A stretch of 64,000 bases of DNA from NCBI RefSeq assembly GCF_024360925.2, contig NZ_CP113517.1, positions 1,736,001 through 1,800,000 on the forward strand, read 5' to 3'. Each line of letters starts with the position of its first letter. The stretch's first letter is position 1. The notes beneath the pieces were generated by a model. The model was given only the letters and a program-made list of their open reading frames with translations. It was not told the DNA's origin and did not search any database. Below, piece after piece: positions 26,364 through 62,225 of this stretch. This DNA is from Methylomonas rapida. GTDB taxonomy: Bacteria > Pseudomonadota > Gammaproteobacteria > Methylococcales > Methylomonadaceae. The translations under genes were made by a program, and so were the position numbers.

Positions 26364-27005
26364 GTGGCGAATATTCTGATTTATTCAAATAATCCGCAAC
26401 TGACCGCCGAGTGGACGCATGCATTGATCAGCGACCATCACGTCAGCCGTTTGTTGAATGCACATAACGATTACCAGGCGGACGCGGTGATATTCGATGC
26501 CAGGAAACTCGATGACGATCCCACGTTGATCTCCATTTTTGCCAATAAGCAAACGCGCTTTTTGGTATTGGGCTCGGATTGGCCGGAACATAAACAAATC
26601 GAGGTTTTGGTACATGGCGCGGCGGGGTATTGCGAGCAAGCCGAGGCGGCCAATCTACTGAAACGCGCCGTCGACTGCATCCTGAAAGGGGATATTTGGA
26701 TGCGACGCGCGTTGGTGCCCAAGGTGATCGGAATCTTGACCGGTAGCCTGAACAACTCGAACAACCATTATCTGTCGCAGGATGAACTGAATAAGTTGAC
26801 CAAGATGATAGATTCCTTGTCCGCGCGCGAGCTTGAAGTGGCCGACATGATACGGCAGGGCCAAAACAATAAGAATATCGCGCTGGCGATGAACATCTCG
26901 GAGCGCACCGTAAAAGCCCATCTCTCCTCGATTTTCAGGAAATTCGGCGTCGATGATCGTTTGCACCTGGCCATACGCCTGAAAGAAATCGACCGCTATC
27001 GCTGA
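26364..27005 (+). CDS. LuxR-type response-regulator-like protein with degenerate receiver
   Basis: Transcription regulator of 213 residues with a GTG start. The C-terminus is a standard LuxR/NarL helix-turn-helix (LSARELEVADMIRQGQNNKN, then ERTVKAHLSSIFRKFG). The N-terminal 120 residues have the size and strand spacing of a receiver, but the acidic pair is replaced by SNN (ILIYSNNPQ) and the Lys-Pro position reads EQ; one Asp (VIFDARK) remains. It is therefore probably not controlled by ordinary phosphorylation. It converges on the sensor operon with a gap of only 14 bases, so overlapping transcripts are likely. Confidence 0.85.
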   Translation: MANILIYSNNPQLTAEWTHALISDHHVSRLLNAHNDYQADAVIFDARKLDDDPTLISIFANKQTRFLVLGSDWPEHKQIEVLVHGAAGYCEQAEAANLLKRAVDCILKGDIWMRRALVPKVIGILTGSLNNSNNHYLSQDELNKLTKMIDSLSARELEVADMIRQGQNNKNIALAMNISERTVKAHLSSIFRKFGVDDRLHLAIRLKEIDRYR

Positions 27006-27019
27006 CCCGGCCAGGCGAG

Positions 27020-29659
27020 CTATTCCGGTTGAGCTTGACCGTTACGACAAAGTTTTGCCACCAGGTCGAAACGGTACACTTCCGTCCAGATTCTGATTGC
27101 CTTGGCGATCTCCGGATGCTCAGGCTGCAAATGCGCCAAGATGGCCTTAATCTTCTCGGCGTCAAGCAGCTCCGCGGCTTCCGCCAATTCGGCGCGTAAT
27201 TCGGGGCTTAACGTTGACAGGTCCAGGGCCCCGTTCGAACGGGGCAATTCGCTGGCGTTGCCACTGACTTCGTCCGCATAACGGTAACGCAATCCGAGTT
27301 GGTCCCCCATGACTTTCAATAGTTTTTGTTCATCCACGGGTTTGGCCAGCATGTCGTCGCAACCGGCGGCTAGAATGCCGTCTTTGTCTTCACGGAAGGC
27401 GCTGGCCGTCAGCGCGGCAATTTTGACTTTGTTGCCGCCGGGCAGGGCGCGGATGGCTTTGGTGGCCTCGTAACCGTTCATGACCGGCATGCGCATATCC
27501 ATCCAGATGAACCAGGGGCGCCAGGTCTGGAAACAATCCACCGCTTGTTGTCCGTTTTCGACGGTTTTGACCTCAAACCCGATATTGCTCAACAACAGCC
27601 TGATCAATTCGCGATTGTCATTATTGTCTTCGGCCACCAGTACCCTGACCGTCGGCTGGTCGGGCGCCAAGCCGATGACCTGACTGGGTGGGGCGGAAAG
27701 CGCGGGCGCCTCGGCCTCCGGCAACGGTACCGTGAATACAAAGGTACTGCCTTTGCCCGGCTCACTGCTGACGTCGATCGTGCCGCCCATCAAGCGCACG
27801 AATTCGCGGCTGATGGTCAGGCCGAGTCCTGTGCCTTCGCCTTGGGCGGCGCCCTTTTCGGTTTGGTAAAACGCCTGGAAGATGCGCGGCAAGTCTGCTT
27901 CGGCAATGCCCGCGCCGGTATCGGACACTTCGAATCGAATATTGTCGCCTTCTGCCTGCACATGCAGCCTGACCGATCCTTGCGCAGTATATTTGACCGC
28001 ATTGCTCAGCAGATTCAACAGGATTTGACGTAAATGGTGGGCATCGCCGACGACATAGCGTGGCAGTTCGCCATCGCGCAGGCTGGCGAAGTGCAAACCT
28101 TTCGACTCGGCGCGCAGCCGAATCATGTCTTCGGCCGACGTCAGCATTTCGGTCAGCGAAAACACTTCGTTTTGGACTTCGGTGCGTCCTGCTTCGATGC
28201 GGGAAATTTCCAGTACATCGTTGATCAACGCCAGCAGATGACTACCGCTGCGGTTTATGGTTTCCAGCTTGCTGTGCTGCTCGTCGGTCAGTGAGGGGTC
28301 GCGCCGGAGAATCTGGGCAAAGCCTAAAATGGCGTTCAACGGCGTGCGTAATTCGTGCGACATGTTCGCCAGGAACACGCTCTTGGCGCGGTTGGCCGCT
28401 TCGGCAGCGTCCCTGGCCTCGATGAGAGCCGCCTCCGCCTGTTTGCGCGCCAGGATCTCGTTGTCGCGCTCACGCACCTTGATCTCCAGGCCGGTATAGA
28501 GTTCCGCCAGCCGGGCGCTCATCTGATTGAAAGCGGCGGCGAGTTCACGTAATTCCCGCGGTCCCGTGGGCGTGGCTTTGATGTTGAAGTTTTTGCGCGT
28601 CATCTGCTGGGTGGCCGCGATCAGATTTATCAACGGTTTTGTCATGATTCGGCTGAAATAAATTGCCAATAGACTGATCGCGCAGGTCAAGACAAACAAG
28701 ACCGCAACCGTGAGCTGTTGCATGCGCCGCAAGGGGGCAAGGGCCTCGTCCGTGTCGATTTTGACCACCATGCCCCAGCGTAACGCGGGCAGATAACGCC
28801 AGGCGGATACGGTCGATTGGCGGGCGTAGTCGGCAATCATCACGCTGTATCCCGACTGTCCGCTCAAGGCGTGTTTCATCGGAACGGCTACTTCGGCGAA
28901 CGGAATCCGGTAGCGGAAGGCGGCGTTTTCGATGTGTTGAAGCGGCGAGGTGTACAGCACAAAATCGCCGTCCTTCTGTGCCAGCACCGTTTCTCCGCTA
29001 GTCCCGAGACCGGTGCGATCGGTGGCTACCGACGCCAGTCTGTCCCAGTTGAATTGCAAGGCTACGACCCCGATGGGTTTGCCATCGTGCAATACCGGGC
29101 TGATCAGAAAACTGGCTTCCTTGTCTTGCGAAGGCGCGTAAGGCGCGAATATCGTTTGGCCGGTTTGCAGCAAATTCAGCGCCGTTTCGACGTCTTCGGC
29201 AAAGTGAGTGTCTCTGTAAGGTCCGCTAAACAAATTGGTGGCGAAATCGGCTTCACGCGCCACCGAATACAGGACATTGCCGCCCTTATCGATCAACAGT
29301 AAATCGTAATAATCTCCCGATTCCAGAAAAGACAGCATGGATTTGTCCAGACTTTCGCTGAGCCGTTGATAGGAAGGGCTGTGCGGACCTTGGGCTTGCC
29401 AAAGCTGGCTCAATTCCAGGATCGCATTTTGAACGGAGGTTCGATTGGCGAGCAGTGTTATGTCGTTATAACGTTCCTGGAAAAAACGGTCGATTTGGTC
29501 GTATTTCTTGTTGGTGATTTGCACCAGGTTATTGGCGACGGTTTCCCGCAGCGCATTTTCATAGATATGCAAAAAATACCAGCCGCCTCCCAGTAGTGGC
29601 GCCAGCGCCAGCAACAAGAAGGCTGCCAACAACCAGGCGTGGATGCGGCCGCCGTTCAT
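27020..29659 (-). CDS. Cache-HAMP hybrid sensor histidine kinase with receiver
   Basis: Inner-membrane hybrid kinase, 879 residues, last gene of the sensor operon. Domains: membrane segment (about 8-30), periplasmic double-Cache-like region (about 35-310, DLLLIDKGGNVLYSV), second membrane segment (about 318-340), HAMP (340-395), coiled coil, HisKA with ANMSHELRTPLNAI (about 435), HATPase (DTGAGIAE, GEGTGLGLTI), receiver with phospho-Asp in FIWMDMRMPVMNGYEA (about 720), and a C-terminal region of 100 residues without an HPt His motif. Its start overlaps the stop of the binding-lipoprotein gene, so that protein may present a ligand to it. Related in layout to the hybrid at 30872. Confidence 0.93.
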   Translation of the reverse strand: MNGGRIHAWLLAAFLLLALAPLLGGGWYFLHIYENALRETVANNLVQITNKKYDQIDRFFQERYNDITLLANRTSVQNAILELSQLWQAQGPHSPSYQRLSESLDKSMLSFLESGDYYDLLLIDKGGNVLYSVAREADFATNLFSGPYRDTHFAEDVETALNLLQTGQTIFAPYAPSQDKEASFLISPVLHDGKPIGVVALQFNWDRLASVATDRTGLGTSGETVLAQKDGDFVLYTSPLQHIENAAFRYRIPFAEVAVPMKHALSGQSGYSVMIADYARQSTVSAWRYLPALRWGMVVKIDTDEALAPLRRMQQLTVAVLFVLTCAISLLAIYFSRIMTKPLINLIAATQQMTRKNFNIKATPTGPRELRELAAAFNQMSARLAELYTGLEIKVRERDNEILARKQAEAALIEARDAAEAANRAKSVFLANMSHELRTPLNAILGFAQILRRDPSLTDEQHSKLETINRSGSHLLALINDVLEISRIEAGRTEVQNEVFSLTEMLTSAEDMIRLRAESKGLHFASLRDGELPRYVVGDAHHLRQILLNLLSNAVKYTAQGSVRLHVQAEGDNIRFEVSDTGAGIAEADLPRIFQAFYQTEKGAAQGEGTGLGLTISREFVRLMGGTIDVSSEPGKGSTFVFTVPLPEAEAPALSAPPSQVIGLAPDQPTVRVLVAEDNNDNRELIRLLLSNIGFEVKTVENGQQAVDCFQTWRPWFIWMDMRMPVMNGYEATKAIRALPGGNKVKIAALTASAFREDKDGILAAGCDDMLAKPVDEQKLLKVMGDQLGLRYRYADEVSGNASELPRSNGALDLSTLSPELRAELAEAAELLDAEKIKAILAHLQPEHPEIAKAIRIWTEVYRFDLVAKLCRNGQAQPE

Positions 29660-30888
29660 GGCGATTTCCTGAGCTGCTTGGCCAGCTCACGCCATTCGCG
29701 CCGGCTGCGATAAAGCGGGTAGGGGACAGGCCTCAAGGCGTTCTTGGAGTCGTAGATAATGTCGAAATTGCCATGCGCGTTGGCCTTGCCGATTTTCACG
29801 TTCTTCCATAAATGCCGGGTGCCGGGATCGACCGCAAGTATGCCAGAAGGGGCTTCGATACTCTGGCGCACGATCGCAAAATTGACCTGCTCGACGTCGT
29901 CGCAGCCTACTTCTTTCACGGCCTGGGCCCATAATTTGACGCCGGTGTAAGCCGCTTCGACGGGGTCGGAAGTGGGTCTGTCGCTACCATAGCGTTGCTG
30001 GTAAGCCTGGACGAAACGACGATTGCTGTCGCTATCGACGCTTTGAAAATAACTCCAGACCGCGTAATGCGCATTGAGATGAACTTCGGGCTGTGCGTTC
30101 AGCTCGCCTTCAGCCACGCTGAAGGATACGATGGCCTGGTCGCTCAGGCCGGCGTCGCGCATGGCGCTGAACAGATGCAAGTTGCTGTCGCCGTTGACCG
30201 TGTTGATGACGACATCCGGCCGCAGTCTTTGAATTTCCTGAATTTCCTGGCTGAAGTCCGTGTTGCCGAGCGGTTGGTAGCGCTCGGCCAGAATCTCGGC
30301 CCCGGACGCCTTGGCCAAATCGGTGATGATCAGGTTGGCAACGCGCGGAAACACGTAATCGGAACCGATCAGGTAGAGGCGCTTGCCGAGATGTTGCAGC
30401 GCCCAATAGATGCCCGGCACGATTTGCTGATTGGGCGCGGAGCCCGTGTAAATGATATTGGTCGATTCTTCCAGCCCTTCGTATTGCACCGGATAAAACA
30501 GCAGGTGACGATGTTTTTCCACCACCGGTTTCAGCGCGATGCGGCAAGCCGAGGTCCAGCAGGCGAACAGGGCTGAGACGTGTTGTTCCTGTATCAAGCG
30601 TTCGGCCTCTTCGGCCGCGATTTCAGGGCTGGAGCGACTGTCGGCGACCACCATTTCCACGGGGCGTCCCAGCAAGCCGCCGGCGGCATTGATTTCTTCC
30701 ACCGCCAGCCGGACCGCATCCACCAATGGTGTTTCGCTGATCGCCATGTTGCCGGTCAGTGAATGGATGACACCGATACGGATGCTTGGCGGCTGTGCCG
30801 GTTGGCAGGAAATCAGACCTGCGGCGAGAAGCCAGAAACCGAACATGAGATAACGGCGACTGATTTTGTGCTCATTCTGCATTGCCAT
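29656..30888 (-). CDS. UrtA/AmiC-like periplasmic binding lipoprotein
   Basis: Type I periplasmic binding protein of the branched-chain amino acid/amide/urea group. Start at 30888 (MAMQNEHKISRR) has AAGGAG eight bases before it; longer in-frame forms are rejected. Seen in 410 residues: lipobox LISC, RIGVIHSLTGNMA, DAVRLAVEEINAAGGLLGRP, ACWTSACR, LFYPVQYEGLEES and GNTDFSQEIQEIQRLRPDVV. No permease or ATPase gene is nearby; it is sandwiched between two kinase genes with overlaps on both sides, so a sensory role is more likely than transport. The ligand is unknown, perhaps an amide or urea-like compound. Confidence 0.88.
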   Translation of the reverse strand: MAMQNEHKISRRYLMFGFWLLAAGLISCQPAQPPSIRIGVIHSLTGNMAISETPLVDAVRLAVEEINAAGGLLGRPVEMVVADSRSSPEIAAEEAERLIQEQHVSALFACWTSACRIALKPVVEKHRHLLFYPVQYEGLEESTNIIYTGSAPNQQIVPGIYWALQHLGKRLYLIGSDYVFPRVANLIITDLAKASGAEILAERYQPLGNTDFSQEIQEIQRLRPDVVINTVNGDSNLHLFSAMRDAGLSDQAIVSFSVAEGELNAQPEVHLNAHYAVWSYFQSVDSDSNRRFVQAYQQRYGSDRPTSDPVEAAYTGVKLWAQAVKEVGCDDVEQVNFAIVRQSIEAPSGILAVDPGTRHLWKNVKIGKANAHGNFDIIYDSKNALRPVPYPLYRSRREWRELAKQLRKSP

Positions 30889-32743
30889 GGCGCTTCTCCT
30901 TGGCGTTGATGCCGGCATCGGCGGCGCGTTGAATTTGCTCGAAACGGAATTCGTTGACCCAGCGCTGTAAAATCGGGGCAACCGTAGGCTGGCTGTCGCG
31001 CAGTTGTTCGATGATGTCGCCGAATCCCGCCAAATCCAGGGTTTCGGCGGCGTATTTGATGGCGAGGCAGAGTTCCAGGCTGGTCGTCGTCAAATCCAAT
31101 TCCGTGGTTTCGATGTGGTTGACGGTTTCATCATAACGGTATTTGACATTCAGAAGCTCGGCCATGATCTGGAACAGGCGCTCTTCTTCGAAGGGTTTTC
31201 CCAGTACATCGTCGCAGCCGGCCTGTAAAATATCGCCCAGGCGTTCCTGAAACACACTAGCCGTCAGCGCGACTATTTTGACGCTATCGCCACCCGGCAA
31301 GGCACGAATTTGCCGGGTGGCGGCATAGCCATCCATGACCGGCATGCGGATATCCATCCAGATGAAGTGGGGGTGCCAGGTTTTAAACGTCTCGATGGCT
31401 TGCAGGCCATTTTCTACCGCGCGCACTTCGAAACCCACGCTGGTCAGCAAGCGCACGATGAATTCCCGGCTATCGGCCGCATCCTCGGCGATGAGAATGC
31501 GTACGGGGGCCTGTCCTGCTTGCAAGCCTAAAACCCTGGCATGCGGTAAAGTCGTGGGCGGGCTGTCAGCGGCGGGCAGCGGCACGCTGAAGCTGAAGAT
31601 GCTGCCTTGACCGGGTTGACTTTGCACGCTGATTTCACCGCCCATCATGTGCACGAACTCGCGGCTGAGAGTGAGCCCCAAACCGGTGCCTTCGCCCAGC
31701 GAAAGGCCAACGTCGGTCTGGTAAAAGGCCTGGAAGATGCGTGTCTGTTCGTCCGGGGCGATGCCGACACCGGTGTCACTGACCTCGAAGCGGATATGCT
31801 CGTTGCAGGGCGTCATGCGCAGGTTGATTTCGCCGTGTTCGGTGTATTTGACGGCATTGCCCAGTAAATTGAGCAAGACTTGTTTTAACCGCTGGCCGTC
31901 GCCAACCACCGAAGATGGCAGCTCACCGTGTTGCTCGAGTTTGAATGTCAAGCCTTTTGCCGCCGCGCGCAAGCGGATCATTTCTTCGACGCTATGCAGC
32001 ATGTCGACGAAATCGAAGGGTTTGTTCTGTATCAGGGTATGGCCCGCCTCGATGCGGGAGATTTCCAGTACATCGTTGATCAAGGCCAGCAAATGGCGGC
32101 CGCTGCGGTTGATGGTTTGCAACTCGCGGCGGTGGTCGCTGTCCAGGGCAGGGTCGCGTTCCATCAATTGAGCGAAACCCAGAATGGCGTTCAGCGGTGT
32201 GCGCAGTTCATGGCTCATGTTGGCCAGAAACGCGGTTTTGGCGCGGTTGGCGGATTCGGCGGCTTCCTTCGCCAGCGCCAGTTCGGCGGTGCGGTGGGTG
32301 ACCAATTCCTCCAAATGAAAGCGGTATTCCGCCAGTTCGCGTTCCAGTTTGGTGCGATGCAGGGTATAAAAAATGGTTCTGGCCAGACCGTCATAGCCAA
32401 AGTCGCCTTTCACCAGATATTCGGTGGCGCCGGCTTTTAGCGTGTTCAGGCCGAATTCGGTATCGGTCTGGCCGGTCAGCACGATGATGGGTGTCAGGCT
32501 GGCCACCGCCAATATCCGTTCGACGGTGTTGATGCCCGCGGAATCCGGCAAGGTCAGATCGAGCAAGATGACATCATACGTTTGCTGGCCCATGCTTTCC
32601 AGCGCTTTTGCCAGGGTTTGTACCCAGGCCACGCTGAAATGCGCATTACGGAAGTCGCGCAAGGCCAGTTGAGCCAAACCCGCATCGCCGGCTTCGTCTT
32701 CAATCAGCAATACCCGAATCGGTGCGGCGCTGTCGTCGGTCAT
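30872..32743 (-). CDS. Receiver-kinase-receiver hybrid protein
   Basis: Soluble hybrid of 623 residues. Domains: N-terminal receiver with phospho-Asp in VILLDLTLPDSAG (about 60), a coiled-coil linker (about 125-165), HisKA with ANMSHELRTPLNAI (about 178), HATPase (DTGVGIAP, GEGTGLGLTL), second receiver with FIWMDIRMPVMDGYAA (about 465), and a C-terminal tail without an HPt motif. It has no membrane segment, so its input should come from another kinase through the first receiver. It overlaps the preceding receiver gene by four bases and the following lipoprotein gene by 17. Confidence 0.93.
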   Translation of the reverse strand: MTDDSAAPIRVLLIEDEAGDAGLAQLALRDFRNAHFSVAWVQTLAKALESMGQQTYDVILLDLTLPDSAGINTVERILAVASLTPIIVLTGQTDTEFGLNTLKAGATEYLVKGDFGYDGLARTIFYTLHRTKLERELAEYRFHLEELVTHRTAELALAKEAAESANRAKTAFLANMSHELRTPLNAILGFAQLMERDPALDSDHRRELQTINRSGRHLLALINDVLEISRIEAGHTLIQNKPFDFVDMLHSVEEMIRLRAAAKGLTFKLEQHGELPSSVVGDGQRLKQVLLNLLGNAVKYTEHGEINLRMTPCNEHIRFEVSDTGVGIAPDEQTRIFQAFYQTDVGLSLGEGTGLGLTLSREFVHMMGGEISVQSQPGQGSIFSFSVPLPAADSPPTTLPHARVLGLQAGQAPVRILIAEDAADSREFIVRLLTSVGFEVRAVENGLQAIETFKTWHPHFIWMDIRMPVMDGYAATRQIRALPGGDSVKIVALTASVFQERLGDILQAGCDDVLGKPFEEERLFQIMAELLNVKYRYDETVNHIETTELDLTTTSLELCLAIKYAAETLDLAGFGDIIEQLRDSQPTVAPILQRWVNEFRFEQIQRAADAGINAKEKRHGNAE

Positions 32744-33189
32744 ATTTTGTTTTCGCGTGGCAGTCGGGTCAGCACGAACCAGTAATCGCTCAATTGCGAG
32801 ATGGCGGCGGTAAATTGCTGCATGTCGACCGGCTTGGTGATATAGCCGGCCGCGCCATGCTTGAAACTGGCTTCGACGTCGCGTTCGACTTCCGAGGTGG
32901 TCAGCACCACGACCGGGATGTCGCGAAAATTTTCATCGGCCTTGACCGCGGCGAGAAACTCGTGGCCGTTCATGCGCGGCATGTTCAAATCCAGCAAGAT
33001 CAAATCCGGCCGCGGAGCCGATTCGAAGGGCTGCTTGCGCTGTAAAAAGTCCAGGCCTTCGCGGCCGTCGAGCAGGTGGTGCAACTGGCAATGCACCCGC
33101 GCTTCTTTCAACGAAACGCGGACCAGATGGGCGTCGGCCGGCTCATCTTCCAAAAGCAGGATTTCGAAGGGGTTAATCTCGAACGTCAT
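32740..33189 (-). CDS. Single-domain response regulator (Rcp1-like)
   Basis: Receiver-only protein of 149 residues of the Rcp1 group commonly paired with phytochrome-type kinases. Seen: acidic cluster LLLEDEPADA, phospho-Asp in LILLDLNMPRMNGHEFL, Thr in VVVLTTSE and the conserved Lys in GYITKPVDM. It overlaps the heme-kinase gene by 17 bases upstream and the hybrid gene by four bases downstream, so it is likely to shuttle phosphate between them. No output domain. Confidence 0.93.
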   Translation of the reverse strand: MTFEINPFEILLLEDEPADAHLVRVSLKEARVHCQLHHLLDGREGLDFLQRKQPFESAPRPDLILLDLNMPRMNGHEFLAAVKADENFRDIPVVVLTTSEVERDVEASFKHGAAGYITKPVDMQQFTAAISQLSDYWFVLTRLPRENKI

Positions 33190-34648
33190 TATTAAGAACT
33201 CCGGTTGGCAGGTCGAATATTACGGCGATACCGCCCATGTCTGAGGATTCTATCCATATTTTGCCGTTCCGGCTGTTTACGATGCGCTCGACGATGGCCA
33301 GGCCGATGCCGGTTCCGGCCAATGGGTTGGGCTTGAGTTGTTCGAATACGCCGAATACGCGCCGGCGATATTCTGGCTCGATGCCGGGGCCATTGTCCTC
33401 GATCACGATGCGCACGGCGGATTTTTCGGCTTGCGCCGCAATCCGGACGCGGGGTGGGACGTCCAGGCGCGCGTGAATGATGGCGTTGTTCAGCAGGATT
33501 TCGAACAAATCGGCCAGACGCGGTAAGTCCAGGTAAACGGGCGGCAAAGCGGTCACGTCGAGCTCTACCTTGTTGTCGGCGATCAGCTTGGCCAAACGGC
33601 GGCGGGCTTCGGTCAAGGCCGCGCCGGGATCGTTCAATTGCATGGGGCCGCGCGCGGTGCTGGCGGCCAGATAGCGCTCGATGTCCCGCAGCAAGTCACG
33701 CATGCGGGCCGCGCCTTTTTCGATGTATTCCAGCGACAAAAGCGCGTCTTCATCCTCCTGTATCCGGCTGCCGAGTCGCGTGCGCAAGCGCTGGGCGTAC
33801 GACAGCAATCTACGCGCGGGTTCCATCAGGTGGTGAGCGGAAATATTGGCGAAGTGCGTCAGCTCGGCATTGGCGCGTTCGATGGCTGCATGTTGCTGGC
33901 CGATTTGCGCGGTGATGCGGTCTTTTTCCAGCAGACGCCGTTTGCTCAGCAAACTCCAGCTGATGATAGCGGCCAAGCCTATTAGCCAGATGGCACCATA
34001 CATCGCTATCTTTTTATGAATCTGTTCGTCAAGTTCTTGCCAATAAGGCCGCATCGGTATCGAAACGCCGACGCCGCCGCGTACTTCGCCGAGTTTGTAA
34101 CCTTGAGAGCCATGGCATTTCAAGCAACCTTGCTGCACCAGCATCGCGGCCATCAAGCGCAAATACGGTTCTCCATCGATGTTGGCGAATTCGAAAACTT
34201 CTTTTGCTCCACGCTCAAACTGATGCATGGCTTCCGCTTCCCAGGCATCGGGGGCATTGATGGGATTCATTAACTTGAAACTGGTGATTTTGCCCCGGAT
34301 GCCATACAACTCGCCGAAATCTTCCATTAGTTGGCGCAGCATATAGGCGGGATTCATCAGCGTCAGTTTCCTGCCCGATGGGGTTTGAATATCGCGCTCG
34401 GGAATCTGGGCCAGTGCCGGATTGGGTGGGGTTCTGCTGTCGATTGGCACATAGACGCCGCCGTGGCTGGTCGCCCATAAACGAAAAGCTAGATCCTTGT
34501 CGAAGTTGGCCCTGGCTTCCTTGCGGGCAAGTGCCTCGGTGTGCTGTCTGGCTAAGCTGATGTCGTAATGGCAAAAACCAGCCAGCAAGGCGCTCCAGGC
34601 AAAAACAGCGGCAAACGTGCTCAATTTGAGATGGCGCAGCTCTTTCAT
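33173..34648 (-). CDS. Histidine kinase with periplasmic c-type heme (DUF3365/Tll0287-like) sensor
   Basis: Inner-membrane kinase of 491 residues. Domains: membrane segment (about 10-27), periplasmic DUF3365-type domain with MNPAYMLRQLMEDFGE and a c-type heme site CLKCH (about residue 174), second membrane segment (about 212-235), coiled coil, a bacteriophytochrome-like dimerisation helix with phospho-His in ISAHHLMEPARR (about 273), and HATPase (EDNGPGIEP, GTGIGLAIVE). The heme motif indicates covalent heme in the periplasm and thus a redox or gas input; that role is inferred. It overlaps the PAS-kinase gene by four bases and the Rcp1-like regulator by 17. Confidence 0.9.
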   Translation of the reverse strand: MKELRHLKLSTFAAVFAWSALLAGFCHYDISLARQHTEALARKEARANFDKDLAFRLWATSHGGVYVPIDSRTPPNPALAQIPERDIQTPSGRKLTLMNPAYMLRQLMEDFGELYGIRGKITSFKLMNPINAPDAWEAEAMHQFERGAKEVFEFANIDGEPYLRLMAAMLVQQGCLKCHGSQGYKLGEVRGGVGVSIPMRPYWQELDEQIHKKIAMYGAIWLIGLAAIISWSLLSKRRLLEKDRITAQIGQQHAAIERANAELTHFANISAHHLMEPARRLLSYAQRLRTRLGSRIQEDEDALLSLEYIEKGAARMRDLLRDIERYLAASTARGPMQLNDPGAALTEARRRLAKLIADNKVELDVTALPPVYLDLPRLADLFEILLNNAIIHARLDVPPRVRIAAQAEKSAVRIVIEDNGPGIEPEYRRRVFGVFEQLKPNPLAGTGIGLAIVERIVNSRNGKIWIESSDMGGIAVIFDLPTGVLNNDVRD

Positions 34649-36471
34649 GGTGCTGGTTGGTCACTTGCCGTCAACGGCAGTTCAAACCAAAAACTGCTGC
34701 CTTGCCCTTCGCCAGCGGATTCCACGCCAATTCGGCCGCCATGATGTTCGACGATTTTGCGGCATAAAGCCAAACCCACGCCGACGCCTTCGAAACGGGA
34801 TTGCGCCTGCAGGCGGGAAAATACCTGAAATAACCGGCCAATTTGGCTGGGATCGATGCCGACGCCTTGATCGGCTATTTCGCAGTGCCAGGCATTGGCT
34901 TGCAGTGTGCCGGTAATGTTGACGACCGGTGCCTTGCCGGTTTCGTGATACTTCAAGGCGTTGCCCACCAAGTTTTGGAACAGGCGCACCATTTCGTCGC
35001 GACTGGCGACCACGCGCGGCCAGTCGCCGTCGATTTTGATTTCTGTCGCATTGGCGTTGATTTCCGGCCCCAGAAAGGCCAGGGCTTCATCCAATGTTTC
35101 GCGAACGTCCAACTCGGCCATGGGCAGGGTTTTGCGGCCGACTCGGGAAAAATCCAGTAACGCCAGGATCATGCCGTCCATGCGGCGAGCGCCATCGGTG
35201 GCGAAATGCAAAAATTGCCGGGTATCGTCGTCCAGTTGTTCCTTCAGGGTTTTTTCGATCAATTGCAGATAACTGTTGACCATGCGCAGCGGCTGGCGCA
35301 TGTCGTGCGATACGGCGTAGGCAAATTGTTCCAGCTCGCCATTCGAGCGTTTCAATTCCGCTTCGACCCGCTTGATTTGGGTGAGGTCGTAATTGACGCC
35401 CACCATGCGCGCGGGGTGGCCGTTTTCGTCGCGTATCAATTGTGCCGCCGATTTCAGATAGTGTATGGAACCATCCGGCCAAATGACGCGAAATTCGGAA
35501 TCGTAGTCATGCTTGCCGCTTAAGGTTTTCAGAACATCGCGCCGCGCCGCACGGCGATCTTGCGGATGCAGCAAGTTCAGCCAGGCTTGCGGCGTGCCGG
35601 CGAATGCCTGAACCTGAATGCCGTAGAGTCGACACATGACTTCGTCCCAGATCAACTCATCGGTGACCGCATCCCACTCCCAAATGCCGATGATGCCGGC
35701 TCGGGTCGCGGCTTGCAAGCGTTCGTTGGCCAGGCGCAGGGCTAGATCGCGCGCCGCCAGCGTGTCCAGCATCGCGTCGAAGGCGCTACCGAGCGCCGCG
35801 GCTTCGTCGATGCCGCTCAGGTGAACGCGACGCTTGCGCTCTCCGGCCTGAATCGCATCGCTGGCCTCGCGGATGATTTCCAGGCGGCGGGTCAAGCGCC
35901 AGCCCATAATGCCCACCCACAACGAACTGATCACGATTGATGCCAAGGCGAACAGAACGCCATCGCGATAAATACTTTGCAAACGCGCATTCATGGTTTG
36001 TCTGGTCAAGCCGACCCTGACCCAGCCGATCCGATACGACGACAGCATGATGGGGCTGACGACATCCACCAAGGCCAGACTGCGCTGCTGAATGTAGACG
36101 TCGGCCGGTTCCGCGGTCTCCGCTGGCAGATCGAGTATGTATTGATTCAGATGCGCAGGGTCGTTATGGGCGACGATGCGTCCGCGCTTATCCAGAATCA
36201 TGGCGTATTGCAGTTCTGGATAACGTTTTTGCGCGCGTATGATTTCCTGCAAGCCTTGAAAGTCTCGGGTCGATAGCCAGCTCGCGGACGAAGAGGCCAC
36301 GCTTTGCGTCAACGCAATCGCATACTCGGTTTGCCGATCCAATAGCATCTGCTTCTGGCGTTCGCTGGCGTCCCAGACGAACATGGCCATGATCAGCGCA
36401 TTGGTGACGGCGACTCCGATGATCAACTGGCGCCGTAACGAGCCAAAAAAAAGCTTCTGCAGCCAATTCAT
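34645..36471 (-). CDS. Membrane PAS sensor histidine kinase
   Basis: Kinase of 608 residues. Domains: membrane segment (about 14-32), periplasmic sensor (about 35-175), second membrane segment (about 177-195), HAMP-like region (about 195-245), PAS/PAC domain (about 255-375; GIWEWDAVTDELIWDEVMC and EFRVIWPDGSIHYLK), a phytochrome-like dimerisation helix with AVSHDMRQPLRMV (about 390), and HATPase (ADQGVGIDP, GVGVGLALCRKIVEHHGG). It is transcribed between the PhnD-like gene (40-base gap) and the heme kinase (ATGA overlap). The PhnD-like protein may be its periplasmic partner. Confidence 0.93.
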   Translation of the reverse strand: MNWLQKLFFGSLRRQLIIGVAVTNALIMAMFVWDASERQKQMLLDRQTEYAIALTQSVASSSASWLSTRDFQGLQEIIRAQKRYPELQYAMILDKRGRIVAHNDPAHLNQYILDLPAETAEPADVYIQQRSLALVDVVSPIMLSSYRIGWVRVGLTRQTMNARLQSIYRDGVLFALASIVISSLWVGIMGWRLTRRLEIIREASDAIQAGERKRRVHLSGIDEAAALGSAFDAMLDTLAARDLALRLANERLQAATRAGIIGIWEWDAVTDELIWDEVMCRLYGIQVQAFAGTPQAWLNLLHPQDRRAARRDVLKTLSGKHDYDSEFRVIWPDGSIHYLKSAAQLIRDENGHPARMVGVNYDLTQIKRVEAELKRSNGELEQFAYAVSHDMRQPLRMVNSYLQLIEKTLKEQLDDDTRQFLHFATDGARRMDGMILALLDFSRVGRKTLPMAELDVRETLDEALAFLGPEINANATEIKIDGDWPRVVASRDEMVRLFQNLVGNALKYHETGKAPVVNITGTLQANAWHCEIADQGVGIDPSQIGRLFQVFSRLQAQSRFEGVGVGLALCRKIVEHHGGRIGVESAGEGQGSSFWFELPLTASDQPAP

Positions 36472-36511
36472 GGATGATTATTCCCGCAAAAAAATGGCAT
36501 GCTGGTCGCCG

Positions 36512-37423
36512 TCATGGTTGCTCGACCGGCCTGACGGTGCTTTCGAACTCGGTGATGTAATCGCGCACCCGTTGATAGCTGGTATCGTCGGCATCGTGAA
36601 AACGGGCGGTTTCCATGCTGGCTAGAATCGCCTGGCCTTCATAGGAATCGAACAACGCCAGGAGCCTGGCTTTGATGGCATCGCGCGTGCTGGCCGGCAC
36701 ATTGTCGCGTACCATCACCGAATTATTCATCAGCGGGGGTGTTTGCCAGGCGACCGTCAATTCGGCCGCTTGTTGGGGATGGTTTTTTTGAAACAGGCGC
36801 CAAGGAGGAGGCCAGGTCGCTCCGGCCGAGGCCTCGCCCAAATAGACGTTCATGATCGAGGATTCCTGCGAGCCGACATAGCGGTTTTCGATGTCGTGAA
36901 TGACATCGAGGCCCTGGTTGTGCAGGAAATACTGCGGCATGATGCAAGCGGCCAGCGCGGTGGGCGATGGATAGCTGACGACCTTGCCTTTCAAATCCAG
37001 CGGCGATTGGATGCCGCTGTCCTTGCGTATGATGAATATGCCTTTGAAGTCTTCGGCATCGCCGGCCATTGCGATGACGTGATAGCCCACCTTCATGGCT
37101 TCCAGGGTTTGCCACGGATTCGGCAATAACAACTCGGGTTGGCGGTCGCGGAATTTGGCTTCGTAATTTTGGTAATCGCGCGAGGCTTCCAGTTCAAACT
37201 GGACTTCGCTGATATGAAGGTTCAGGTAATCGACCAGCGGTTGGTAAGCCTCGGCCAGTTTGGCCGGATTATGCAAGGGATGGACCGCAAAACGGTAGAG
37301 GGGTTTCTCGGTATCGAGCGGTGCGTTAGCGTATTTGGGCCCTTGTGGCGCATCGTTTTCGGAGCCGCAGCCAACTATCACGGCAAACAGCGCGAAAACG
37401 AGAGGGCGGTACAGGGGGGGCAT
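36512..37423 (-). CDS. PhnD-like periplasmic binding lipoprotein
   Basis: Phosphate/phosphonate-type solute-binding protein of 303 residues. Seen: lipobox VIVGC, YRFAVHPLHNPAKLAEAYQP, PELLLPNPWQTLEAMKVGY, LKGKVVSYPSPTALAA, and NRYVGSQESSIMNVYLGEAS. No phn transport or lyase gene is near, and the next gene downstream is a kinase, so it probably serves as a signal-presenting subunit, as known for several PhnD-like/kinase pairs. It follows the HD-GYP gene by two bases. Confidence 0.88.
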   Translation of the reverse strand: MPPLYRPLVFALFAVIVGCGSENDAPQGPKYANAPLDTEKPLYRFAVHPLHNPAKLAEAYQPLVDYLNLHISEVQFELEASRDYQNYEAKFRDRQPELLLPNPWQTLEAMKVGYHVIAMAGDAEDFKGIFIIRKDSGIQSPLDLKGKVVSYPSPTALAACIMPQYFLHNQGLDVIHDIENRYVGSQESSIMNVYLGEASAGATWPPPWRLFQKNHPQQAAELTVAWQTPPLMNNSVMVRDNVPASTRDAIKARLLALFDSYEGQAILASMETARFHDADDTSYQRVRDYITEFESTVRPVEQP

Positions 37424-37425
37424 TG

Positions 37426-38499
37426 CTAGGTTCTCTTGATCAACTCGGGAAGCATGTAGCCCTTTTCCTCGAACAGACGTAAACAGGCGGCCGCGACATC
37501 GGCGTCATAAATACGACCGGCTCCCGCGCGAATCTCCTTCAATGCGTGTTCCAAACCCAGTGCCGGCCGATAAGGACGATGAGAGGCGATGGCTTCGACG
37601 ATGTCCGACACGCTGATGATTTGCGATTCCAGCAGTATCTCGCCGCGCTTCAAGCCGCGCGGATAGCCGCTGCCATCGAGGCGTTCGTGGTGTTGCAGAA
37701 TCATGTCCGCCACCGGCCAAGGGAATTGCACATGCTTGACGATGTCGTAACCGACTTCCGGGTGGGTTTTGATGAAGGAAAATTCGATATCGGACAAGGC
37801 GCCAGGGCGTGTCAGAATTTCGACCGGGACATAGATCTTGCCGATGTCATGCACCATTCCGCCCAAGCGGATGCCTTCGATTCGATCCGCGCTCATCCCA
37901 AGTTCGTGGGCGATCTCGGCGGCTATCAAGGAAACCCGCCACTGGTGGCCGGCTGTGTACGGGTCGCGTTTCTCGATGGTCATCGAAATCGCCAGGATCA
38001 TTTCTTCCAGGATCTTGGAATACTTTTTTTGACTTTCGCTCAAGGATTCCAGCGTCATGCGCAAGTCTTGCGTGCGGGTCTCGATGACGTTTTGCAGGTT
38101 GCATTGCAAGCGATAAAGCTTGATGTGAGCCTGAACCCTCGCCAGGACTTCTTCCATCTGAAAGGGTTTGGCCACGTAATCGACGCCGCCGACACGGAAG
38201 GCGTTCAGCTTGTCTTCCATGTCTTGTAGCGCACTGATGAAAATGACCGGGATTTCCCGGGTTTGTTCATCGGCCTTCAGGTGGCGGCAAACCTCGTAGC
38301 CATCCATTTCGGGCATGCGGATGTCCAATAAAATCAGATCGGGCGGGCTGGATTTGATCGACTGCAGCGCGAATTTTCCGTCCAGGGCGGGGCGTACCTT
38401 GTAGCCTGCTTGCTGCAGGATGCCGCTCAAGACTCGCAGATTGTTGGGCTGATCGTCCACGATAACAATGTTGCCCTGGTTGTCGCCTGAATTATTCAT
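37426..38499 (-). CDS. Receiver-HD-GYP c-di-GMP phosphodiesterase
   Basis: Two-component output protein, first gene of the sensor operon. Start at 38499 (MNNSGDNQG) is preferred to a longer form. Seen in 357 residues: receiver with IVIVDDQPNN, phospho-Asp in LILLDIRMPEMDGYEV and PVIFISA, a coiled-coil linker, then a full HD-GYP domain with HDIGKIYVP (about 217) and HHERLDGSGYP (about 276). All catalytic residues are present, so it should degrade c-di-GMP in response to phosphorylation, opposing the cyclase encoded at 9964. Confidence 0.94.
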   Translation of the reverse strand: MNNSGDNQGNIVIVDDQPNNLRVLSGILQQAGYKVRPALDGKFALQSIKSSPPDLILLDIRMPEMDGYEVCRHLKADEQTREIPVIFISALQDMEDKLNAFRVGGVDYVAKPFQMEEVLARVQAHIKLYRLQCNLQNVIETRTQDLRMTLESLSESQKKYSKILEEMILAISMTIEKRDPYTAGHQWRVSLIAAEIAHELGMSADRIEGIRLGGMVHDIGKIYVPVEILTRPGALSDIEFSFIKTHPEVGYDIVKHVQFPWPVADMILQHHERLDGSGYPRGLKRGEILLESQIISVSDIVEAIASHRPYRPALGLEHALKEIRAGAGRIYDADVAAACLRLFEEKGYMLPELIKRT

Positions 38500-38936
38500 G
38501 CCTTGAATCCTGCAGTGATCTTTTGTTTGAATTTCCATAATGGCGCAAGCTGCCGTCGTAAAAGCGCCCTCTCCTCGTGGGAGGGGGGTAAGGAATGAAC
38601 ATGAAATAATCTATGCAAGTATCCGGTGCAGGTGCGGATTTATCCGCACCTGCCATTGCCGAGCTTGTTTCCCGCACATTCCTAAATGATTTAAATACCT
38701 GAGGTAAAATTAATTAGCCACTAACTAGTGGTATTTTGCAAGTTCCTCGCCTGATTTAATCCCTTCATCCCAACCTTCTTCCGGCGGGAGAAGACGCTGT
38801 TTTGACTTTTACGACGGCCTTCTAAGTGCGACAGTTTAACTTGATAGTCCAGGTAATTCACGGTGAATTTCAACGGTTATTCACAAAAATGGCCCTTGTT
38901 GCGCGGGGCAAAGCGGGGGCGCTTGCGGGGTAGCGA
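38500..38936. other. 437-bp region upstream of the sensor operon
   Basis: No gene. It must hold the operon promoter but no clear -35/-10 pair was recognised. It includes the family A repeat at 38589-38684 and an AT-rich stretch (about 38685-38740). Confidence 0.55.
38589..38684. repeat. Dispersed repeat family A, copy 2
   Basis: 96 bp starting TAAGGAATGAACATGAAATA and ending CACATTCCTAA, with the same central palindrome around GTGCGGATTTATCCGCAC as copy 1. It lies 90 bp upstream of the sensor operon start. Confidence 0.75.
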
Positions 38937-39686
38937 TCACGGCACAAAATCAGTCAAGTTCAGACTGACAAAGCCCTGTTGTTTGGCGCGTGATTTATCG
39001 CTGTCGGTGTTATAGCCCCATGTCGCAAACAGCAATTTCACGGCAGCCAGCTCCGGATGTTTTTGCACGTTGAGCAAGGTCGGCAGGCGATCCTCGATAA
39101 ACTGCAATTCTTGACCCGGATGGGTTTTTAATAAGCCTTGCAAGACTTCGACCTTGCTCAAATTGCGGTCGAGGCCAAAAATCCTTTCGTCGGCCAGTTC
39201 GATGGCGTTGGCTTGCAGGATGTGTTTGACGAAGCGTTCTTGTTTGGTGGTGACGACATACCAGGTTTCCGTCCGCCCAAGCTGTTGCAATTTTTCCGCA
39301 ATCCCCGGAAATAACGGATTCATCGCAATCCAGGATGCCAGGTCGTTTGCTATCCAGTGATCGCGGGTTTCGCCAAACCGTTTTTTCAATTGCTCGACGC
39401 TGACTTGCGCTTGCCGTAGCAATTGCTGGGTTTTTTCCTGGTAGTCGCGGAAAATGGCGTCGCAGCTGTCGCCCAGATATAACAAGCGCATCGCCAGGAT
39501 CGCCTCATAACCGGTTTCGATGATGGGGCGAATCTGGCGGAATTTTTCGATCATGTCGGGCGGCGTCTCGGTGGGCATGTCGCCCCAGAGTTGGCCGGCG
39601 GCTTTCCAGCCGGTGATGGCGGTTTCCACGGCGCTGTCACAGATGACGCCGTCAAAATCATAGGCGTGAATTATCGGATTGCTCAT
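38937..39686 (-). CDS. HAD-family hydrolase
   Basis: Phosphatase-like protein of 249 residues. Seen: HAYDFDGVICDSAVET (motif I with both Asp), VVTTKQERFVKHIL (motif II Thr), Lys in LSKVEVLQGLL, and the acidic motif LQFIEDRLPTL. The cap domain lies between residues about 20 and 110. Substrate unknown. Similar proteins occur in cyanobacteria and methanotrophs, but no pathway is indicated by the neighbours. Confidence 0.88.
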   Translation of the reverse strand: MSNPIIHAYDFDGVICDSAVETAITGWKAAGQLWGDMPTETPPDMIEKFRQIRPIIETGYEAILAMRLLYLGDSCDAIFRDYQEKTQQLLRQAQVSVEQLKKRFGETRDHWIANDLASWIAMNPLFPGIAEKLQQLGRTETWYVVTTKQERFVKHILQANAIELADERIFGLDRNLSKVEVLQGLLKTHPGQELQFIEDRLPTLLNVQKHPELAAVKLLFATWGYNTDSDKSRAKQQGFVSLNLTDFVP

Positions 39687-60170: not shown

Positions 60171-62225
60171 ATGCCGATCGATATGGCGCAATTCCATCAG
60201 GTCTTCTTCGAGGAGAGCTTCGAAGGCCTCGATGCGATGGAGTCGGGATTGCTGAATCTTGACATGGGGGACGTGGATGTCGATGAAATCAACACCATTT
60301 TTCGTGCGGCGCACTCGATAAAGGGCGGTAGCGGCACCTTTGGCTTTAGTGTGGTGTCCGATTTCACCCACGTGATGGAAACCTTGCTCGACGAAATGCG
60401 CGATGGCCGGCGCAAGGTCACCCGGCAGGCCGTCAATGTGCTGCTGGGTTCGGTCGATTGCTTGCGTGAGATGCTGCATGCCATTCAAGATGGCGGCGAG
60501 ATCGATCGACAAAGCGTCAGCGCCCACAAAGCAGCGTTGGACAATGAGCTCAATGGCGCGGCCGCAAGCGATCAGGCGCAGTCGTCCGGCGAAGCGCGTG
60601 CCGTTGACCACGCACAACCGACAAGCACGCCAACGATGTCCGCTTGGAAGATTGCCTTCAGCCCTCATGCCCATCTATTGAAAACCGGCAACGATCCGGT
60701 CAGGATGTTTCGCGAATTGGCTACCCTGGGCGATTTGACGGTAACCGCCGATTTGCGCGGAATACCCGATCTTTATCAGCTCGACCCGGAGGAATGTCAT
60801 CTATCCTGGACCCTGGATTTGCAGGGCGAGGTTTCCGTCGGCGAGATCGATGATATTTTCGACTGGGTGGAAGACGACTGCGATCTGGCCAAGCAGCCGA
60901 TATATGCCGCGGAATCGCTGTTGCAGCCGCCTGGCGCCGTGGATGCCATTGCGGTCGAGCAGCCGCAGGAAATCGTTGCCGTTCCAGCCGTGCCCGAATC
61001 GATTGCGGCCGACAACAAGGAGGGCAAAAAAGAAGATGCCAAGGCGGCAAGCAAAGGTTCCAGCACGATACGCGTCGATACCAGCAAGATAGACACCTTG
61101 ATCAACATGGTGGGCGAGCTGGTGATCACTCAGTCCATGCTGAGCCTGATTGGCGAGCATTTTGAATTGAGCAAGCTGGATCAGCTGAAAAACGGTCTGT
61201 CGCAACTGGAGCGCCATACTCGCGAGTTGCAGGAAAGCGTGATGAACATTCGCATGCTGCCCATCAGTTTCGTGTTCAGCCGCTTCCCGAGGCTGGCGCA
61301 TGATTTGAGCAGCAAACTGGGTAAAAAAATCGAACTGAAACTGGTCGGCGAGCATACCGAGGTGGATAAAACCGTGGTGGAATTGCTCAGCGATCCGTTG
61401 GTGCATCTGGTCAGAAACAGTCTGGATCACGGCATCGAAATGCCGGATGTACGGCTGGCCGCCGGTAAGCCGGAAACCGGCACGGTGACGTTGGAGGCCT
61501 ATCATCGCGGCGGCAACATCGTCATCGAGGTCAGCGATGACGGTAAAGGCCTGGATAAGGACAAGCTGCGCGCCAAGGCCATAGAAAAAGGCTTGATAGA
61601 GCCGGACGCGGTTCTGACCGACAAGCAGACCTACGAGTTGATTTTCATGCCGGGTTTTTCCACCGCCGAAAAACTGACCGACATTTCCGGACGCGGCGTG
61701 GGCATGGATGTGGTGCGGCGCAATATTCAAGCCTTGGGCGGCAATATCGAAATCATCTCCACGCTGGGCAAGGGTTCCACCATATCGATACATTTGCCGT
61801 TGACGTTGGCGATCCTTGACGGTCAGTCGGTGGCGGTTGGCGACGAAACCTATATCGTGCCGCTCGGTGCCATCATCGAATCCTTGAACATCAAGGAAGA
61901 CAGGGTCAATCGGGTGGTGGGAAAAGGCGAGACGTTTCAATTGCGTGACCAGTATTTACCCATCATACGCATGCACGAGATTTTCAATGTCACGACGGCA
62001 AAACATACCAAGCTGACCGACGGCCTGCTGGTGGTCGTGGAAGGGCAGGGCGTGCGTTGCGGTTTGTTCGTCGACGATCTGCTCGGGCAGCAGCAAGTGG
62101 TGATCAAGTCGCTGGAGGCCAATTATCGTCGGGTTGAGGGCGTCTCCGGCGCCACCATACTGGGCGATGGTTCGGTGGCCTTGATTCTGGACATACCCGG
62201 TTTGGTGCGTCTGGCGAATCAGTAA
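60171..62225 (+). CDS. cheA: Chemotaxis histidine kinase CheA
   Basis: Phosphorylates CheY in response to receptor arrays. Seen in 684 residues: HPt domain with phospho-His in RAAHSIKGGSGTFGF (about residue 49), a P2-like region (about 155-250), dimerisation helices from IRVDTSKIDTLINMVGELVI, ATPase with LVRNSLDHGIE, VSDDGKGLDKDKL and DISGRGVGMDVVRRN, and a CheW-like C-terminus. The TAA stop is also the target duplication of a family C element that begins at the next base. Confidence 0.95.
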   Translation: MPIDMAQFHQVFFEESFEGLDAMESGLLNLDMGDVDVDEINTIFRAAHSIKGGSGTFGFSVVSDFTHVMETLLDEMRDGRRKVTRQAVNVLLGSVDCLREMLHAIQDGGEIDRQSVSAHKAALDNELNGAAASDQAQSSGEARAVDHAQPTSTPTMSAWKIAFSPHAHLLKTGNDPVRMFRELATLGDLTVTADLRGIPDLYQLDPEECHLSWTLDLQGEVSVGEIDDIFDWVEDDCDLAKQPIYAAESLLQPPGAVDAIAVEQPQEIVAVPAVPESIAADNKEGKKEDAKAASKGSSTIRVDTSKIDTLINMVGELVITQSMLSLIGEHFELSKLDQLKNGLSQLERHTRELQESVMNIRMLPISFVFSRFPRLAHDLSSKLGKKIELKLVGEHTEVDKTVVELLSDPLVHLVRNSLDHGIEMPDVRLAAGKPETGTVTLEAYHRGGNIVIEVSDDGKGLDKDKLRAKAIEKGLIEPDAVLTDKQTYELIFMPGFSTAEKLTDISGRGVGMDVVRRNIQALGGNIEIISTLGKGSTISIHLPLTLAILDGQSVAVGDETYIVPLGAIIESLNIKEDRVNRVVGKGETFQLRDQYLPIIRMHEIFNVTTAKHTKLTDGLLVVVEGQGVRCGLFVDDLLGQQQVVIKSLEANYRRVEGVSGATILGDGSVALILDIPGLVRLANQ

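Follow-up and report, generated by a model that had tools for sequence, protein, structure and literature searches.

Both the pairing of PhnD-fold binding proteins with Cache receptors and the control of kinases by PhnD-fold proteins are already known. The pairing is reportedly exemplified by XAC2383-XAC2382, in which the binding protein and its Cache receptor are tied to cyclic di-GMP (c-di-GMP), and which is said to occur in several phyla with different outputs; the control of kinases is known from AioX of AioX-AioS-AioR, which stands with ArxX/ArrX among the arsenic sensors. Here we describe an operon of eight genes, g1 to g8, in a 64,000-nucleotide stretch of the genome of Methylomonas rapida (contig NZ_CP113517.1, positions 1,736,001 to 1,800,000; 'the window' hereafter), in which a PhnD-like and a UrtA/AmiC-like lipoprotein are each encoded next to a Cache receptor kinase, together with two further kinases, a small receiver and an HD-GYP protein. 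As a whole, the operon is best explained, with a probability of roughly 0.7, as a transferable multi-input signalling unit.

Its resemblance to XAC2383-XAC2382 lies in the PhnD-fold binding protein gene directly adjoining a Cache receptor gene, in the window as in 69 of 72 related loci; it differs in coupling this pair to a histidine kinase (HK) operon with an HD-GYP protein, where the XAC system has GGDEF fused to the receptor, and in holding a second binding-protein/receptor pair. At the sequence level g2 matches XAC2383 weakly (profile match, E 1.2e-6, positions 112-271), and the PhnD-like protein of G153 (L150), tried as a bridge, does not have XAC2383 among its matches. From the arsenic sensors the operon is set apart by the absence of arsenic genes and by the Ala-x-Ala and Gln that g2 has in place of the Ser-x-Ser and His of ArrX/PtxB. 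Like UrtA and AmiC, g7 is a Peripla_BP_5 protein, but it is followed by a dCache receptor and not by UrtB. The kinase boxes of g3 and g4, together with the small receiver g5, presumably place these proteins near the Cph1-Rcp1 type, from which they differ in that Pfam reports no phytochrome domain in the eight window proteins; g1 we take to be of the RpfG type.

An initial annotation, made from the DNA letters alone, knew of no described system of this composition; a literature search (open-licence papers, by title and abstract) likewise found none describing the eight-gene combination, but XAC2383-XAC2382 and AioXSR are precedents for its parts. As far as the literature searched goes, the gene combination, the separate pocket clade, the joint exchange of binding protein and sensor, and the gene fusion described below appear to be new. 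A survey counts 13 of 22 families of solute-binding proteins as interacting with receptors (PMC9602780), and a review names SBP_bac_3 domains as the only ones of the periplasmic-binding-protein clan studied in c-di-GMP networks (PMC8846402).

Conservation and exchange of the operon

The eight open reading frames (ORFs) lie head to tail on the minus strand at 27020-38538 (coordinates are positions within the window, and genes are numbered in transcription order); their junctions, from g1 to g8, are gaps of 2 and 40 nt followed by overlaps of 4, 17, 4, 14 and 4 nt. These coordinates bear out the initial annotation's eight one-strand genes with junctions that overlap or span at most 40 nt. Its domain list was right for seven of them; for the eighth, g3, listed as a PAS kinase, Pfam adds HAMP and an sCache_3_2 domain on the periplasmic side.

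The search of the genus, which covered 37 genomes including that of the window, was anchored on g2, relatives of which were found in 17 at E <= 1e-20; gene order was mapped in the 16 others, to which the operon counts refer. The eight-gene arrangement recurs in two of the 36 other genus genomes, G094 and G061, with g1 78-80% and g5 82-86% identical. In G094 g3 is present as two genes; in G061 this is also the case, and in addition g7 and the sensor of g8 are replaced and g4 is interrupted by an insertion of about 1.1 kb (L032 5355-6672), whose ORF has no Pfam match and, judged by eye, may run antisense to a transposase gene. G061 and G094 resemble each other more than either resembles the window genome (79% against 68-73% in g6, for example). 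The flanks of the three operons show no mutual similarity, either by blastn/tblastx of the DNA or by tblastn of flank proteins; since the three share gene order but not flanks, the block stays together at different sites, and the arrangement is therefore not due to chance. The search for gene order in relatives, proposed with the initial annotation, thus found it conserved, and with the linkage of the pairs in related loci this supports the proposal of a single sensory unit in which two binding proteins stand beside receptors.

In place of g7, G061 encodes an NMT1-type binding protein; the sensor of its g8 differs as well, while the HK-REC part (kinase and receiver) is still 69% identical. In G096, a 45% relative of this NMT1-type protein directly precedes a receptor whose sensor is related (31%, E 5e-28); because G096 carries this related pair, a ready-made binding-protein/receptor pair was probably swapped into G061. 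This gives a concrete example of an input exchanged as binding protein plus receptor sensor, with kinase and output unchanged.

Two binding proteins next to Cache receptors

The gene g2 (36512-37423; Pfam Phosphonate-bd, with a lipobox recognised by eye) encodes a PhnD-fold lipoprotein, and its presumptive partner g3 (34645-36471) a kinase of the architecture sCache_3_2-HAMP-PAS_3-HisKA-HATPase; judged by their neighbourhood in related loci, the two look like a binding-protein/receptor pair, sensor parts rather than transporter parts. In the family, 35 of 151 genomes have a g2 relative at E <= 1e-20. An sCache receptor lies directly downstream on the same strand in all 20 wide family regions (in L044, which has two PhnD-like copies in tandem, it comes after the second), and one is also found downstream in 13 of 14 further regions, the exception being L150, a 28% relative. 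In named genomes, nearly all metagenome-assembled, 75 loci encode g2 relatives at 53-71% identity. By record title, and in our own grouping, the g2-relative loci span about 12 phyla: Pseudomonadota, delta-proteobacteria, Nitrospirae, Chloroflexi, Bacteroidetes, Verrucomicrobia, Kiritimatiellales, Hydrogenedentota, Dependentiae, Wallbacteria, Spirochaetes and Caldithrix (where the locus ends at the gene). The 72 named loci with downstream DNA include the 69 with an adjacent sCache domain, whose outputs are a kinase (47), HD-GYP (5), GGDEF (2), GGDEF with EAL (2), contig-cut (3), and other or unrecognised (10).

Pairwise distances of the PhnD-like proteins and their sCache domains correlate across these 69 loci with r 0.63, a value reached by none of 2000 permutations, which owes part to shared ancestry. 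In the 44 kinase-bearing loci, PhnD-sCache gives r 0.59, PhnD-HK 0.28 and sCache-HK 0.11; across loci, identities average 63% for PhnD, 51% for sCache and 32% for HK, the last being lowered in part by unrelated kinases joined to the same sensor. A sensor pair better conserved than its kinase is, to our knowledge, unusual.

Tandem PhnD-like genes before a single sCache kinase occur in L044 (2950-4802) and L140 (6278-8191).

The second lipoprotein gene, g7 (29656-30885 from its likely ATG; with the first allowed start, the ORF extends from 30981), matches Peripla_BP_5 at 1.6e-140, again with a lipobox recognised by eye; the solved structures closest to it are 8tg1 (E 1.5e-107), UrtA (7s6e) and AmiC (1pea). 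It is followed by its presumptive partner g8 (27020-29659), a hybrid receptor kinase of the architecture dCache_1-HAMP-HisKA-HATPase-Response_reg, with which it looks, from the neighbours of its relatives, like a second pair of sensor parts. The family search with g7 gave 30 loci, 17 at >=48% identity (window included) and 13 at <=39%: a dCache match lies directly downstream in all of the former, and UrtB (query: a BPD_transp_2 permease) in all 13 of the latter, which are transporter-type UrtA loci. The UrtB permease that accompanies UrtA in urea/amide transport is not co-located at the window locus, and neither the ORF list nor the Pfam scan of the eight proteins shows any transporter subunit. 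With 25 of the 29 loci of the phylum search, a dCache receptor is next to the gene in 42 of the 46 loci of the g7 clade (window included), and a chemoreceptor in two more. Transporter genes beside close relatives of the two binding proteins, which the initial annotation had named as evidence against its reading, were looked for and not found: these relatives adjoin receptors, not permeases.

The HD-GYP protein as probable output

The first gene of the operon, g1 (37426-38538, with ATG at 38538 or 38499), encodes a receiver (REC) fused to HD-GYP (Pfam Response_reg 5e-30, HD_5 1.8e-35); HDxGK, HHExxDGSGYP and the receiver Asp are intact, in keeping with the HD-GYP assignment made initially, and the protein is a predicted c-di-GMP phosphodiesterase. 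Elsewhere HD-GYP is linked to both kinds of pair. Among the 75 named PhnD loci it is fused to the sCache receptor in five and encoded as a co-directional REC-HD-GYP protein in five (in a sixth, L204, it lies on the opposite strand). For the UrtA-like/dCache pair, in genus g15, a REC-HD-GYP gene lies upstream on the same strand in four of seven loci (G129, G097, G065 and G110); of the remaining three, two are cut by a contig edge, and G120 genuinely lacks the gene. In L250, too, a REC-HD-GYP gene stands just ahead of the UrtA-like gene. When g1 is compared with the REC-HD-GYP proteins of these loci, its best match from outside the genus (52.6%) adjoins a PhnD pair in G065. From these linkages, g1 is likely the shared output of both pairs. 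With 12 HD_5 matches above the cut-off in the window genome, finding an HD-GYP gene next to a kinase operon is no rarity in itself.

The five sCache-HD-GYP fusions beside PhnD-like genes (L176, L180, L184, L186 and L219) come from Chloroflexi/Anaerolineales records in four cases and from Rhodoferax in one.

A complete His-Asp-His-Asp phosphorelay would have an HPt protein encoded with the hybrid kinases; the Pfam scan reports no Hpt domain in the eight proteins, as noted initially. The genome has 13 Hpt matches, one of them within the window at 60192-60491; in G129, one of the g15 loci above, an Hpt domain is fused to a hybrid kinase of the gene run.

Proposed signalling scheme and alternatives

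Besides g3 and g8, the operon encodes two kinases and a receiver. The product of g4 (33173-34648; PF11845 9.2e-23, HATPase_c 3.2e-18) combines a Tll0287-like periplasmic domain with a CxxCH motif (CLKCH near residue 175), which supports the initial assignment as a heme-c kinase, and has an AHHLMEP box; g5 (32740-33189; Response_reg 6.5e-21) is a single-domain, Rcp1-like receiver, and g6 (30872-32743) a soluble hybrid kinase of the architecture Response_reg-HisKA-HATPase-Response_reg. Histidine boxes and receiver aspartates are present in the operon proteins. In the scheme we propose, each of the two lipoproteins would bind a ligand outside the cell and then dock on a periplasmic Cache domain, g2 on the sCache domain of g3 and g7 on the dCache domain of g8; g4 would contribute a periplasmic heme input, redox or gas. 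The kinases would exchange phosphate with the operon receivers: the non-hybrid g3 and g4 most likely act via the stand-alone receiver g5, the receiver of g1, or both, and the hybrid g6 and g8 would either depend on an HPt encoded elsewhere or address receivers directly. The phosphodiesterase activity of g1 would then be set by its phosphorylation, lowering c-di-GMP; we infer that all kinases of the operon converge on this protein. The inputs would be exchangeable, a binding protein and its receptor's sensor being replaced together.

Several observations weigh against this scheme. The whole operon is confined to 3 of the 37 genus genomes; the heme input seems dispensable in G061, where g4 is split; and the pair type found in G061 recurs in just one of the five other family genomes that have a relative of its binding protein. 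Pair linkage has exceptions: three of the 72 PhnD-like loci lack an sCache neighbour (L162, L174 and L178), the two further PhnD-type genes of the window genome (L274 and L275) have no recognised receptor alongside, and the conservation figures of the PhnD-like pair carry the two discounts given with them. Four of the 46 g7-clade loci lack dCache: in L230 and L248 a 4HB_MCP-MCPsignal chemoreceptor directly follows the UrtA-like gene, which suggests that binding proteins of this type can act in chemotaxis, in L250 a REC-HD-GYP gene directly precedes it, and L231 has just 358 nt of downstream DNA. On the output side, HD-GYP accompanies the PhnD pair in a minority of cases, most loci having a kinase without a REC-HD-GYP gene nearby, and the hybrid kinases come with no HPt that would connect them to g1.

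The strongest alternative, which we consider improbable but by no means negligible, is that separate systems are stacked in one operon, PhnD-like/sCache with g1 on one side and UrtA-like/dCache with REC-HK-REC on the other, having different partners and much of their output elsewhere in the genome. Each pair does occur without the other in other genomes, the kinase cores are of two types (SHELRTPLN in the hybrids g6 and g8, SHDMRQ/AHHLME in the non-hybrids g3 and g4), and the genome has the 13 Hpt matches counted above; however, the genes stay linked at three sites with unrelated surroundings, REC-HD-GYP accompanies both pairs elsewhere too, and the HK-REC cores of g6, g8 and gene 3a, the counterpart of the receptor half of g3 in G094 and G061, are 54-60% identical (g6 and g8 55%). 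This likeness of the cores is consistent with growth of the operon by duplication and sensor exchange.

A gene fusion in g3

In both G094 and G061 the counterpart of g3 consists of two genes, 3a (sCache-HAMP-PAS-HK-REC, 862 residues) and 3b (PocR-PAS-HK). The first part of g3 (35389-36471), the sCache_3_2-HAMP-PAS receptor half, aligns with 3a as far as the linker that follows PAS; the second (34645-35352), the HisKA-HATPase core with an SHDMRQPLR box, matches 3b at 63-65%; and the junction (residues 362-373, at 35353-35388) falls within a linker common to both. No PocR domain was found in the window genome. By this alignment, g3 joins in frame two genes that both relatives keep separate. The initial count of four kinases holds for the genes, but g3 fuses two kinase genes, and g6, g8 and 3a carry the closely related cores described above. 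With this linker repeated in 3a and 3b, the simplest reading is a deletion by recombination at this repeat, which would have joined the PhnD-linked sensor to a non-hybrid kinase core and so rewired one input to another kinase in the window genome. The opposite direction, with the single gene ancestral and the two-gene form of G061 and G094 arising by insertion or duplication, seems to us rather unlikely: the three genomes do not fix the polarity, since G061 and G094 are closest to each other, but outside the group sCache receptors frequently terminate in HK-REC, as 3a does, and the position of the junction in a shared linker also speaks for deletion.

The binding pocket of g2

An AlphaFold model of g2 (pLDDT 89) matches PtxB, PhnD, ArrX, AioX and XAC2383 at the level of the fold. 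PMC5908839 gives Ser161, Ser163, His192, Tyr88 and Tyr131 as common to AioX and PhnD; AioX is absent from the sequence hits, and its numbering is transferred here by motif. In profile alignments, the Ser-x-Ser of PtxB/ArrX falls on Ala156-x-Ala158 of g2 and the His on Gln186, with no variation at any of the three positions in 53 of 53 sequences; one Tyr of the pocket is probably replaced by Phe126 in the clade (53/53, with an uncertainty of one column), and the second is retained as Tyr84 (52/53). GSQES occurs in 15 of 17 further proteins, the two without it being the upstream copy of L044 and L150. The pocket of g2 is thus not the one by which PtxB and ArrX mark binders of phosphonate, phosphite or arsenic oxyanions, and because the Ser-x-Ser and His are replaced, phosphonate is, on these alignments, an unlikely ligand; the hint at phosphonate that the initial label 'PhnD-like' might give falls away, and the annotation 'phosphonate-binding' for this clade is suggested to be misleading. 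That the fold accepts other ligands follows from BstB, a sterol-binding PhnD-fold protein of a methanotroph (PMC10942540); it differs from g2 in serving trafficking without a linked receptor, and shares 10% identity with it.

The tandem copies of L044 differ in their pockets, one being of the GSQES type and the other of the canonical GSH type.

That the binding proteins serve mainly in uptake, the kinases regulating a transporter elsewhere, is very improbable: ABC transporters use both folds, but the receptor neighbours of close relatives of g2 and g7, the changed pocket of g2, and the fact that the window genome's only other Peripla_BP_5 match above the cut-off is fused to PAS-GGDEF-EAL-BLUF all argue against it.

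The PhnD-like cassette, being better conserved than the kinases it drives, points to a cue that members of many phyla sense, in some cases through c-di-GMP enzymes directly. Tentatively, and with less confidence than for the operon, the PhnD-like protein and its sCache domain could form one conserved sensor cassette, distributed across the 12 or so phyla and coupled to kinases, diguanylate cyclases or HD-GYP enzymes, that reads a single widespread non-oxyanion extracellular ligand through an almost invariant pocket (TALAA, GSQES, ATWPxPW); operons like the one described here would combine such cassettes, and deletions would rewire them.

Further features of the locus

A scan of 26900-39000 for promoters and terminators gave 3 promoter-like sites against 5.9 expected and 25 terminator-like ones against 16.1 (standard deviation 4.6), and is uninformative; Rfam, scanned over the whole window at gathering scores, gave no match. 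A convergent LuxR-type gene at 26364-27005 was considered as a member of the system and dropped, having no match near the operons of G094 and G061. Both g6 and g8 end, after the last receiver, in a tail of about 97 residues with no Pfam match of its own and no HPt-type histidine motif by eye. Elsewhere in the window genome, a PhnD-type domain is fused to PAS-GGDEF-EAL in a single protein of 1416 residues (L272 3170-7420; G000:C1, near 986 kb). A protein with the order Peripla_BP_5/6-PAS-GGDEF-EAL and a C-terminal BLUF domain (L273 1063-4347) brings amide-type and blue-light inputs together in one chain.

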